This document shows positions 52,970 through 56,625 of a DNA stretch of 56,973 nucleotides, piece by piece. The notes under the pieces were generated by a model, which was not told the DNA's origin, searched no databases, and worked only from the letters and a program-made list of their open reading frames with translations. The stretch is from contig NZ_WJBI01000002.1 in assembly GCF_020804225.1 (NCBI RefSeq), forward strand, positions 392,342 to 449,314, written 5' to 3'. Positions within the stretch are counted from its first letter, which is position 1; every line of letters begins with the position of its first letter. This DNA comes from Methanosarcina sp. DH2. Lineage in GTDB: Archaea; Halobacteriota; Methanosarcinia; Methanosarcinales; Methanosarcinaceae. A program made the translations under genes and the position numbers.

Positions 52970-53036
52970 GTGCCGGAAAAAGATAAAAATCCTGAAAACA
53001 ACTGAGTATCAAAAACTAAAAAACAAGGTGGAATTA

Positions 53037-54062
53037 ATGCAGGATCTCTGGACTCTAAAATACAGGGCAGATACTCTTAAAGGGATGCTTGGAAACGAAC
53101 ATGCCGTGAACACGCTTTCCGAACTGGTTCAGTCCAGGACCCTGCCCCATCTAATTTTTTACGGCCCTGAAAATTCAGGAAAAACAACGGCTTCTCTTGC
53201 CCTTGCCAGGCAGCTCTACGGAGAGACCTGGAAAAACAACTTTGCATACTTTAATGCCTCTGACTTTTTCGACCAGGGAAAACGCTATCTTGTACGGGAC
53301 AAACGTTTTGTCCGCATTCTGGGCACTGATGATCCTAAAAAAATCTACAAAAGCGTGATCGACATTTTCAAGGAAATTATTAACGAATACGCCGGAATGG
53401 CTCCCCTTGATGCCGATTACAAGGTCATCTATATCGATAACGCAGAGTCCCTGAGCTCAGATGCGCAGCATGCGCTCAGGCGGATCATGGAAAAGTACAG
53501 TGCAACCTGCAGATTTATTCTTTCCACTACAAGACCTTCAAAACTCATTTCTCCCCTTCGATCAAGGGGCCTTCAGGTATTTTTTACCTATGTCCCGGAT
53601 TCTCTCCTGAAAATTCACCTTGAGAGAATCGCCCTTTCTGAAAAGCTGAAACTTTCCGGCGGCGCACTTGATGCAATTCTTTATCTTGCTAAGGGAAACG
53701 TTGCAAGAGCTGTCCAGACTCTCCAGCTTGCGGCCCTGAGGGCAGAGGGTGCTGAAATAACGGAAGAAATTGTATATGAAGCTACCATGAAGGGCAGGGA
53801 CGAAACTGTGGATCTACTGCTTGAGGCCGCTCTTGCAGGAGATTTCTCCAGAGGGCGGCAGCTTATAGATGAAATGATTATTGAGAAAGGACTTTCTGGA
53901 ACTGATATTCTTGAAGGGCTTACAGAAGCTCTTATAGATTCAGGAGAAACCGACGCTGATATTGCACGCCTTATTGTTAAAATCTCAGAAACCGATTCAA
54001 GGCTTACAGACGCTGCCAGTGAGAGAATTCAGCTCGAAAAACTAATTTCTACTTTTTCCTGA
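53037..54062 (+). CDS. Replication factor C small subunit, divergent (RfcS2-type)
   Basis: A clamp-loader subunit that helps place PCNA on DNA. The AAA+ domain is complete in layout, with TLKYRADTLKGMLGNEHAV, a Walker A loop GPENSGKTT, the arginine-finger region RSRG, and a C-terminal collar domain. It differs from canonical RfcS: the Walker B box is YIDNAESL instead of xxLDEADx, and the SRC motif reads SRG. Methanosarcina is known to have a second small subunit, RfcS2, beside a normal RfcS1; this fits that subunit. The ATG follows AAGGTGG; the GTG three codons before overlaps that site. Confidence 0.88.
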   Translation: MQDLWTLKYRADTLKGMLGNEHAVNTLSELVQSRTLPHLIFYGPENSGKTTASLALARQLYGETWKNNFAYFNASDFFDQGKRYLVRDKRFVRILGTDDPKKIYKSVIDIFKEIINEYAGMAPLDADYKVIYIDNAESLSSDAQHALRRIMEKYSATCRFILSTTRPSKLISPLRSRGLQVFFTYVPDSLLKIHLERIALSEKLKLSGGALDAILYLAKGNVARAVQTLQLAALRAEGAEITEEIVYEATMKGRDETVDLLLEAALAGDFSRGRQLIDEMIIEKGLSGTDILEGLTEALIDSGETDADIARLIVKISETDSRLTDAASERIQLEKLISTFS

Positions 54063-54302
54063 TCTATTTTTTAGTCAAAATCTCTGATTTTTTGGATGGG
54101 AACTTACTTCTCATCCTCCCAATTTATTTTTATACGTGAGTATTCTCCTTTTATATGTTTCGGTTTACTACACTTCCTAATATACCTATTATATAAATAG
54201 TTCTATTAGATTCTTTCATTAAATACCAAATTATATATACTATATCTCTTTACTTGAAATTGGAGCAGCAAATTATATATACAATTAGTTTTTATCTTTT
54301 AT
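54063..54302. other. AT-rich segment after the RFC gene
   Basis: Holds the end of the RFC transcript and two or three TATA-like elements (ATTATATAAATAG near 54190, AATTATATATAC near 54230 and 54271). No gene. Confidence 0.45.
54271..54280 (+). promoter_or_regulatory. TATA box ahead of the structured RNA
   Basis: AATTATATAT, preceded by a purine-rich stretch (GGAGCAGCAA) that could serve as BRE. Normal spacing places the start near 54303, about a dozen bases before the first hairpin. Confidence 0.5.
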
Positions 54303-54668
54303 TGTAAGTAGACCAGAAGCTCATGCTTCTCAGGAGTTAAGGGGCTTAATTATACTTTCTAAGCAAGGTACAGACCTGAGATTTCAGGATACATCCCTGG
54401 TGGTGTGCCTGTACCCTCTATAGAGAGTTCGGAGCCTGTACTCCCTCGAGCAGAAGTCGGATTCGGGTCTTCTGAACAAATCCACAAAAAAATCCCTCCA
54501 TTGCTCCCTGAATAATCCCTCTTTTCAGGGAGACCATGCTCATGCGGTAGAATTGATCTACAACTTCATTTCAAAAACGAAAAATATTCTACTGTGCTCT
54601 AAGAACTTTAAAAAATATGGTCTGCCTGACTTCCTCCTCAGGCAGACATCCGGTTAAACTTTTTTTGT
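54303..54668 (+). ncRNA. Candidate structured non-coding RNA (~365 nt)
   Basis: No reading frame, but a dense row of hairpins. AGAAGC/GCTTCT lies at 54315-54330. A GGTACAG/CTGTACC stem (54367-54415) encloses CCTGA/TCAGG and ACATC/GGTGT, which looks like a three-way junction. Then come GGAG/CTCC (54431-54444), CAGAAG/CTTCTG (54451-54474), a 9-bp CTCCCTGAA/TTCAGGGAG (54504-54532), GTAGA/TCTAC (54547-54561) and a 10-bp GTCTGCCTGA/TCAGGCAGAC (54620-54647) followed by a T run. A TATA box lies ahead. It does not carry the conserved boxes of RNase P or SRP RNA that I know. The + strand is inferred from promoter and T-run positions; no gene follows on that strand, so it is not a leader. Confidence 0.55.
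54620..54668 (+). terminator. Strong hairpin with T run
   Basis: A perfect 10-bp stem GTCTGCCTGA / TCAGGCAGAC with an 8-base loop, followed by CATCCGGTTAAACTTTTTTTG. On the minus strand the same hairpin is followed by CCATATTTTTTAAAG, so it could also end the leftward membrane-protein operon. Confidence 0.7.
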
Positions 54669-54712: not shown

Positions 54713-54949
54713 TCAGTACTTGTAGTGCTTTACCGAGTGATACAGGATCACTACAAAGAAAGCAATTATGACAAGCAAGAAACTGAAGAAACCTACAGGG
54801 TCCCAGACAAAGCCTATTCCTGCCCCTCCTTCTCCCCAGGAAACGAGCACAGCTCCCTGGAGCACTGTGGGAATAACCACACAGGCGAAGGCAAGGATGA
54901 AAATAAATACAATATCAAAGACTTCTATCAAGATGTTCTTCTCTGCCAC
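54713..54949 (-). CDS. Small two-segment membrane protein (78 residues)
   Basis: Two hydrophobic segments (IEVFDIVFIFILAFACVVIPTVL and FFSFLLVIIAFFVVILYH) joined by a short Gly-rich loop (SWGEGGAGIGFVWDPVG); it ends KHYKY. The start is GTG, with GGAGG nine bases upstream that overlaps the stop of the preceding gene, so translation is coupled. It is the last gene of the operon with the methylamine-type permease. Not recognised; a small subunit of the permease is plausible by position only. Confidence 0.7.
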   Translation of the reverse strand: MAEKNILIEVFDIVFIFILAFACVVIPTVLQGAVLVSWGEGGAGIGFVWDPVGFFSFLLVIIAFFVVILYHSVKHYKY

Positions 54950-54962
54950 GTCTTCTGCCTCC

Positions 54963-55232
54963 TCAATCGTAGTATTTGAACTCGAACATGTGGTTTTTGA
55001 TGGAGTCTCTTACCCTCAGGCATCCTATAGTCTCGATTAAAAAGATCAGTCCGAGAAAGATTACGTAAAGGTAGAAGAAATCGGAAGCAATTTCCCATGT
55101 TTCGGAGAGGATCCTGTATATTATGAATCCTTCCACACCTACAAGCAAAGCAAGCATGCCTACAACGAGAAGCGTATCTCCGTTAAGTTTGCTATGATAT
55201 TTGCTTTCCAGTGCCTGGTTATTCGTCTCCAA
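54963..55232 (-). CDS. Small two-segment membrane protein (89 residues)
   Basis: A polar N-terminus, then LLVVGMLALLVGVEGFIIYRI and FFYLYVIFLGLIFLIETIGCL as membrane segments, and a basic/aromatic C-terminus (FEFKYYD). The TTG start is supported by GGAGG nine bases upstream, inside the end of the permease gene; it overlaps that gene by 14 bases. Probably translated with the permease. Function unknown. Confidence 0.7.
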   Translation of the reverse strand: METNNQALESKYHSKLNGDTLLVVGMLALLVGVEGFIIYRILSETWEIASDFFYLYVIFLGLIFLIETIGCLRVRDSIKNHMFEFKYYD

Positions 55233-56625
55233 TGCTCATCGCCTCCTTTCCGATTCTTTGATTTTCCGAGCCTTCGGGTAAGGGCCAGCCCATTTCAGCC
55301 CAGTTGTTTTCGATGTTTGAACTCTTGTGCCTGTGGCTGAAATAGAAGTACGCAATGCCATAGAACACAAAGGCGAAGATCAGGTTATACTTGTAGCCCC
55401 AGAACAGCGTTGAAAGAATCGTAATTGCGATTGCAATTGCAAAGTAAGCAATATACGGCTGAAGAGGGCCCACAAAAGGCCTGACCCGACTTGTGGACTG
55501 CGGAAAGAGGTTCCTGAAACGAATCAAGGAGAAAGGAATCAGCACGTAACAGAGCAGCCCCGAAATAATTGAGAAGGTAATCACCTGGTCAAGGAAACCG
55601 CTGAATGCAAAACCAATTGCAACAGGCATTGTGAAAATCACTGCCCGGTATGGGGTATTGTACCTTGGGTGCACTGCTGAGAACCAGGAAGACACGTAAT
55701 TGTCTCTGGAGAGGGCAAACCAGGAACGTGAGGAGTCACAGACGCAACCGTTTGCACTGGCAACACAGGTCAGAAAGGTCCCAAGCCCTAGCAGAGCAAT
55801 AAAGATAAATATGCCACTGTTCTGTGCAGCCTCAAAAAGCGGATACACGGAAACTCCGAGCAGGTCCGTCGGGATCAGCACTGCACATAGGTAGAGGGTC
55901 ATTGCCGCTCCTATGAGCAGGGTGATCATCCCGGCCTGCTGCCCAAGAGGCACTGCCCTTGACGGATGTTTGCACTCTTCGGCGCACATTGCCGCCCCTT
56001 CAATCCCTAAATAGAACCATGGTCCGAATTGCAGGGCTGCAAAGAGGCCTATCATGCCGTTTGGCAGGGCTCCCTGGAAAAGGTATTCAGGGTGAATATC
56101 CACGCCGCCAAAAGCAGTTGTGAAGAAGAAGGCCACTATTGCAATGAAAGCGATCATGGTCAGGACAAAGTTCAGGGTTAGAGCCGCAACAACGCCACGG
56201 TAATTTATGAAGGTCAGAAGTGCAATAACAAGCAAAGTCACAGGAAAAACTTGCAGCTCCGGGAAGATGCTTTGTGCGATGAATGCGACTACAATGGCAT
56301 CCGCCGCCTCAAGGGCGATGTATTCCATATAGACCGCAAGTCCGACACTGGCAGCCGCTCCGGGCCCGACAAATAACCTTGCCCAGTCATAGGGTCCTCC
56401 TGCAAGTTTGGTTGCTGACCCGAGTTCACTGGCACAGAGGGAGATTATAACATACATTGTCCCTGCAACCAGCATGGCAAGCAGAGAACCCAGTACCCCT
56501 CCTTTTGCGACAGTGAAGTTCCAGCCCATGTACTCTCCGACCAGCACAATTCCTACGCCGAGAGCCCATACATGGAAGGGCCGCAGAGTTTTTACCAGGC
56601 TGGCAGCTTCATTGTGTTCAGACAT
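55219..56625 (-). CDS. mtmP: APC-superfamily permease downstream of mtmB (probable methylamine permease)
   Basis: A 468-residue transporter with twelve predicted membrane segments. The text GEYMGWNFTVAKGG and AGGPYDWARLFVGPGAAASVGL resembles amino-acid/polyamine/ethanolamine permeases of the APC superfamily. It ends in a hydrophilic tail (NNWAEMGWPLPEGSE…). It lies just downstream of a gene whose end matches monomethylamine methyltransferase (MtmB). In Methanosarcina such a permease, MtmP, is found there, so monomethylamine uptake is likely. An ethanolamine or amino-acid substrate is the alternative. AGGGG precedes the ATG. Confidence 0.82.
   Translation of the reverse strand: MSEHNEAASLVKTLRPFHVWALGVGIVLVGEYMGWNFTVAKGGVLGSLLAMLVAGTMYVIISLCASELGSATKLAGGPYDWARLFVGPGAAASVGLAVYMEYIALEAADAIVVAFIAQSIFPELQVFPVTLLVIALLTFINYRGVVAALTLNFVLTMIAFIAIVAFFFTTAFGGVDIHPEYLFQGALPNGMIGLFAALQFGPWFYLGIEGAAMCAEECKHPSRAVPLGQQAGMITLLIGAAMTLYLCAVLIPTDLLGVSVYPLFEAAQNSGIFIFIALLGLGTFLTCVASANGCVCDSSRSWFALSRDNYVSSWFSAVHPRYNTPYRAVIFTMPVAIGFAFSGFLDQVITFSIISGLLCYVLIPFSLIRFRNLFPQSTSRVRPFVGPLQPYIAYFAIAIAITILSTLFWGYKYNLIFAFVFYGIAYFYFSHRHKSSNIENNWAEMGWPLPEGSENQRIGKEAMSIGDE

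Follow-up and report, generated by a model that had tools for sequence, protein, structure and literature searches.

A conserved structured RNA beside the methylamine permease operon of Methanosarcina and its predicted pairing with the mttP translation start

In the genome of Methanosarcina sp. DH2 (G000; the other G, g and L labels used below denote comparison genomes, genera and loci), a gene-free region separates rfcS from a convergent methylamine permease operon. A preliminary description of this DNA proposed a structured RNA here, which could act on methylamine genes. Does the region encode a functional RNA, and which gene might the RNA act on? All positions refer to the window, the whole stretch of 56,973 nucleotides that was analysed.

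Locus and neighbouring genes

The upstream gene rfcS (53028-54062, + strand; NCBIfam NF009067) encodes replication factor C small subunit 2. On the opposite strand, the convergent methylamine permease operon (54713-56625, - strand) comprises two small ORFs and an AA_permease-family permease (mtmP). The region 54303-54668 lies between the rfcS end at 54062 and the stop of the permease ORFs at 54713, and contained no gene of its own, as had been described. The two small ORFs 3' of the permease (54713-54949 and 54963-55232, - strand; 78 and 89 aa) are conserved, and no Pfam or NCBIfam family matched them.

In every genome with readable context, the RNA was located at the 3' end of the mtm operon. 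It adjoins the permease ORFs in most genomes, mtmB directly in G022, and an Amt-type transporter (PF00909) in G020, G017 and G066 (genus g2). Insertions separate the RNA from rfcS, and not from the permease, in two genomes. Among other members of the family (ten genomes), rfcS almost abuts the next gene and no comparable spacer exists.

The Amt/Rh-type transporter takes the place of MtmP at the mtm operon 3' end in Methanosarcina and g2 genomes (L133 2191-3447; L134 301-1554; L135 4759-6006; PF00909), which suggests that it is used for methylamine. One in-frame TAG was also found in rfcS of G009 and G016 (L085, L086), possibly encoding pyrrolysine or reflecting a shifted stop.

Conservation of the RNA

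Homologues were found in 25 of the 30 Methanosarcina genomes, together with diverged forms in two neighbouring genera (g22 and g2). By blastn, 24 of the 30 genomes including G000 carry one copy each. Two covariance models were made from separate parts of the RNA, R1 from the linker and hairpin and R2 from domain I (both described below), and each added homologues beside rfcS, namely L076 (Methanosarcina G025) and L077 and L078 (genus g22). Through R1 we also found a shortened RNA in genus g2 (L080, L088), in which the linker, hairpins and terminator are kept and the 5' domain is small.

The linker and hairpin showed 84% identity to the window, with 64% of columns invariant (14 species). Domain I showed 75% identity and the flanking spacers 37% and 31%, while the coding end of rfcS showed 81% identity and 45% invariant columns, fewer than the linker and hairpin.

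Four genomes (G004, G009, G016 and G023) contained no RNA, and the permease gene mtmP, mtmB and mttP were also missing from them. The joint loss of the RNA and the mtm genes is partly due to linkage because they share one locus; mttP, unlike the mtm genes, is unlinked to the RNA. In G011 only a relic remains (L138 3682-3751; L139), where the promoter and domain I were lost and the linker was multiplied as AAGUCCCUCU units, and here the mttP Shine-Dalgarno (SD) sequence drifted to GGAGGAA.

The RNA had been described as belonging to no known family, and Rfam gave no match at the gathering threshold, the relaxed search returning chance-level scores only (E 0.75 and 3). Identity with tRNA or tmRNA was rejected, as none was detected. 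A match outside the family at L025 was discarded as a 48-base chance match, apparently within the ruvA coding sequence. A pattern scan of the named-organism genomes, with a pattern that was too rigid, returned the single match Methanosarcina sp. 2.H.T.1A.6 (G029).

Secondary structure

The + strand of 54303-54668 folds at -109.7 kcal/mol, compared with -87.8 ± 5.6 kcal/mol for 100 dinucleotide shuffles, none of which was as low (z -3.93). The - strand also scored against shuffles (z -3.40); we take the + strand as the RNA strand because the TATA boxes, the C-rich linker and the 3' U-run suit it. From the conserved block, the homologues and the lack of a common ORF, the whole non-coding RNA is predicted to span 54299-54668 (+), about 365 nt.

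Domain I (54310-54470, about 165 nt) is a predicted rod closed by the helix 54310-54314/54466-54470, for which compensatory changes were found. It contains a three-way junction (54368-54414), formed by the stem GUACAG/CUGUAC (54368-54373/54409-54414) and two hairpins. The linker follows with two conserved motifs. Motif 1, AAAUCCAC (54478-54485), is complementary to GUGGAUUU, which holds the mttP start codon and codons 2-3; motif 2, UCCCUCCAUU (54493-54502), is complementary to AAUGGAGGGA, the mttP SD. Next comes the hairpin CUCCCUGAA/UUCAGGGAG (54504-54532) with a nearly invariant stem and an exposed C-rich loop UAAUCCCUCUU, then a 3' stem GGUAGAA/UUCUACU (54546-54593), which has double changes in the RNAalifold consensus. 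The conserved terminator (54620-54667) consists of the hairpin GUCUGCCUGA/UCAGGCAGAC (54620-54647), also with double changes, and a U-run to 54667, and doubles as a terminator-like sequence for the convergent mtm operon. Mean predicted unpaired probabilities were 0.79 for the linker, 0.84 for the hairpin loop and 0.42 for the whole RNA. For the 5' segment GCUUCU, a local hairpin or a helix with AGAAGC was partly supported, less consistently than the chosen helix.

The fold of domain I was examined for compensatory changes in two alignments. The first (A4) was made with plain MAFFT from 19 species; here pairing holds in 96.9% of cells, and 8 of the 36 pairs changed on both sides; 20 double-change cells were counted against 7.0 ± 3.2 in shuffles (0 of 500 as many), and sliding the pairing partners abolished this signal. 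In the alignment that includes the diverged homologues (A6), which was fitted to the model and is hence biased toward it, 19 of the 36 pairs had double changes, with 43 cells against 10.4 ± 2.8 after shuffling. Within the stem of the three-way junction, each of the six pairs has a double change in one species or more (A6).

An ORF on the + strand with common start and stop was shared by at most 4 of 24 species, and the small-protein reading was rejected since no ORF is common to the species. That the region is a small mRNA, or a conserved intergenic stretch with no function, has in our view almost no probability: in M. mazei, Ribo-seq reveals small ORFs under translation within many sRNAs (PMC11456600), but the ORF count and the 19 compensated pairs speak against this reading here. 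It is close to certain that the RNA is real, conserved, structured and non-coding.

The structured RNA, the probable three-way junction and the hairpin-T-run terminator of the preliminary description are all borne out by the shuffle comparison and by the covariation in relatives that it had called for. Its row of consecutive hairpins was right in that the region is folded, but several local hairpins (e.g. 54316-54329) compete with the long-range helices of the rod.

Promoter

A single TATA box had been placed at the front of the RNA. The box is present, but there are three of them: the proximal box 3 (54274-54281, + strand; mean match 7.74), located 25 bp above a TTATTG start, box 2 (TATATATA, 54232-54239, + strand; 6.97) 42 bp above it, and the TATA-like box 1 (TATATAAA, 54190-54197, + strand; 7.28) 84 bp above it. 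These offsets (0, -42 and -84) were the best upstream ones over 29 loci, with matches counted out of 8 and a background of 3.66 ± 0.89. The start expected 25 bp below box 3 is 54299, a few bases from the described start at 54303.

The spacing of boxes 2 and 3 is 42 bp in 23 of 24 Methanosarcina loci and 43 bp in one, and the array at 42-bp steps is conserved in all relatives and across three genera. Forty-two base pairs correspond to four helical turns. When whole genomes were searched for TATATA repeated three times at 42-bp intervals, with at most one mismatch, the promoter was matched in 19 genomes; G000 and at least 11 others had no second site of this kind, and the array was nearly unique per genome. 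Of the few other matches, most look like AT-rich tandem repeats. The control with the reversed pattern is not independent because TATATATA also holds the reversed motif. The RNA thus appears to have its own promoter and terminator and to be separate from any mRNA, its downstream neighbours being convergent. The three-TATA promoter with 42-bp steps poses a puzzle of its own in archaeal transcription.

Predicted target

A first target search, for an SD-like pattern followed by ATG, found no conserved gene; it missed mttP because the start codon of this gene is GUG. Ranking by energy among the genes of the window and the mtm locus also found none that stood out, and the mtmC and mtbA starts offered only 8-10 matching bases.

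In the R1 genome scan, which presupposed no target, 12 RNA-bearing genomes gave weak secondary matches (E 0.002-0.1). For 10 of these genomes the top one covered, in antisense orientation, the translation start of the same gene, orthologous among them. Its product is a 348-aa EamA-family permease. The gene order is mtbC-mttB-mttC-permease-small ORF-mtbB (MTTB and Dimeth_Pyl domains), that is, a TMA/DMA operon distant from the RNA. We call the permease gene mttP, presumably correctly, by its position and by literature usage; no curated family bears this name. Permeases in such methylamine clusters have been named mttP (PMC5688252). A conserved ORF of about 97-102 aa lies between mttP and mtbB (L179 4747-5037; L185 2622-2927) and had no Pfam match.

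In Methanosarcina, the mttP start region has the sequence AAUGGAGGGA-(4-6 nt, U-rich)-GUGGAUUU, and close variants occur elsewhere; the SD is GGAGG and the start codon GUG. The linker is the reverse complement of this region, and this accounts for its two conserved motifs as well as for the intervening A-run, whose length varies. Neither mttP paralogue B nor the mttP of genera lacking the RNA has this special start region. Paralogue B has similar first residues, another start region and weaker linker pairing (-11 to -22 kcal/mol). The incomplete RNA-bearing genomes G005, G010 and G017 contained paralogue B only, and in G008 no mttP was seen.

Duplex energies were computed for protein-free RNA. 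The linker of each species was predicted to pair with its own mttP start in all 25 species tested, from three genera, over 18-27 bp that cover the SD, the GUG and the next codons, with energies from -21.7 to -34.1 kcal/mol (mean -29.9); shuffled targets averaged -8 to -14 kcal/mol. None of 200 shuffles was as good as the own mttP in 24 species, and one of 200 was in G066. When the G000 linker was compared with 165 genes, seven mttP starts came at the top (-31.3 to -36.6 kcal/mol), and the best of the roughly 158 others reached -21.8. When the full RNA and the mRNA were folded together in six species, the gain was 18-25 kcal/mol, against 7-12 kcal/mol with shuffled mRNA, and the linker pairing was kept. 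Taken in silico, the pairing of the RNA with mttP is strongly supported.

The two partners also vary together in part. The linker ACUCCC of g2, g22 and G025 faces the target GGGAGU, and the AUCCC of the species that we informally recognise as mazei/acetivorans-like (this and similar clade labels are our own) faces GGGAU. RNAs of the ACUCCC type reach -24 to -29 kcal/mol on their own targets and -17 to -20 on GGGAU-type targets, while the reverse combination, AUCCC-type RNA with GGGAGU-type target, still pairs well. The permutation p for co-change was 0.015 in ten related species; the duplex itself holds few compensatory changes, and the barkeri-like RNAs retain an internal mismatch. Because the reverse combination pairs well and the permutation covers ten species at this p, the co-change supports co-evolution of linker and mttP and falls short of proof.

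The preliminary description had expected an action on methylamine genes from the position convergent to the mtm operon. The methylamine link is supported by the predicted match to the mttP start and with the mtm-adjacent locus, but the predicted target is mttP in trans and not the mtm operon, whose start sites are unremarkable as linker partners. If the RNA instead acted in cis on that operon, as an antisense 3' end or an insulator, the mttP match would be a by-product. The position at the operon 3' end, which persists where MtmP is an Amt transporter or absent, and the bidirectional terminator common to both agree with such an action; the conserved domain I, promoter and linker match would be left unexplained, and we hold it to be very improbable.

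Proposed function

In the mechanism that we propose, the three-TATA promoter would give a transcript of about 365 nt, in which the rod-like 5' domain and the terminator hairpin flank the exposed linker. Its sequence, 5'-AAAUCCAC-(A)n-UCCCUCCAUU-3', would pair with the mttP mRNA 5'-AAUGGAGGGA-(U)n-GUGGAUUU-3', and the predicted duplex would bury the mttP SD, the spacer, the start codon GUG and codons 2-3. Since the duplex would extend from the SD through codon 3, no ribosome could start and no MttP would be made. Sequence comparison establishes the RNA, its fold and its conserved complementarity to mttP; transcription, the duplex in the cell, the repression and the growth conditions that would govern it are inferences. 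We consider it highly probable that this is a trans-acting RNA that pairs with the mttP start and represses MttP translation.

An RNA duplex that covers a start site as a rule leads to repression, and burial of the SD and start codon together blocks initiation in all comparable cases known to us; repression of MttP is the likely outcome. A pairing with a positive net effect, through protection of the mRNA or by keeping an inhibitory fold open, is unlikely: M. mazei sRNA154 stabilises several mRNAs and represses another (PMC5867862), but the duplex predicted here hides the SD and the start codon together.

The TMA/DMA operon of M. mazei, mm1687-mm1694, is not expressed on methanol, and trimethylamine induces it (PMC3407599). 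Repression of MttP by the RNA would place translational control on top of the transcriptional control for which this operon has been known, and the RNA could serve as a second lock on uptake or as a setter of the MttP level within the operon. It would concern methylamine uptake, and methylamines are a main methane source in marine and gut settings. We might further speculate that an RNA made at the monomethylamine locus silences the TMA/DMA permease, that read-through of the convergent mtm operon removes the RNA, so that one switch sets MMA and TMA uptake, and that the loop may hit the second paralogue. This wider scheme is rather doubtful, and the coordination via read-through is a guess.

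Comparison with known small RNAs

To our knowledge, targets have been established for very few archaeal sRNAs, and here the target is predicted to the base-pair level across three genera, in a genetically tractable methanogen. Masking of a ribosome-binding site is known in M. mazei from sRNA162 (PMC3510493) and, within polycistronic mRNAs, from sRNA41 (PMC5867862). The studied RNA resembles RNAs of this type in being non-coding, with an exposed conserved segment complementary to a ribosome-binding site encoded elsewhere (25 of 25 species). Like sRNA162, it is an intergenic Methanosarcina RNA whose unstructured linker is predicted to pair with the site in trans, with a link to methylamine use, but sRNA162 has 191 nt, is located between MM2441 and MM2442 and targets the regulator MM2441 (PMC3510493). 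With sRNA41 it shares the masking inside a polycistronic mRNA, here predicted, but sRNA41 targets ACDS operons; the two are set apart by the description of targets and not by locus (PMC5867862). It also resembles sRNA154, which is conserved in Methanosarcina, trans-acting and equipped with an anti-RBS loop, but has 130 nt, lies between MM3337 and MM3338 and has nitrogen targets (PMC3177094, PMC5867862). Identity with sRNA162 or sRNA154 was rejected, as their loci differ from that of the studied RNA between rfcS and the mtm operon. Exposed CU-rich motifs in a linker or loop that cover SDs are also known from LhrC of Listeria and other UCCC-motif sRNAs (PMC4132741); those are bacterial and multicopy with short pairing, whereas the studied RNA is predicted to form about 22 bp with a single gene, in a duplex that includes the start codon.

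Further partners of the linker and loop

UCCC/UCCAC motifs are repeated in the linker and loop, and are multiplied in G011 and genus g2. The hairpin loop fits the SD of paralogue B moderately in some species (from 0 of 200 to 35 of 200 shuffles as good), and such a pairing is suggestive only. These repeats and moderate loop matches would suit an RNA that is mainly a decoy, the CU-rich linker and loop binding a protein or many SDs and the mttP match being merely the strongest. Full-length complementarity to one gene, including the GUG and codons 2-3, exceeds what an SD decoy needs, so that we give this account a low probability, slightly below that of a positive effect on mttP.

The start of mtbA, AGAGAGGGAUUAUAG-AUG (L146, about 7283), is conserved, and about 10 of its bases are complementary to the hairpin loop; it may be another target or an SD that matches by chance.
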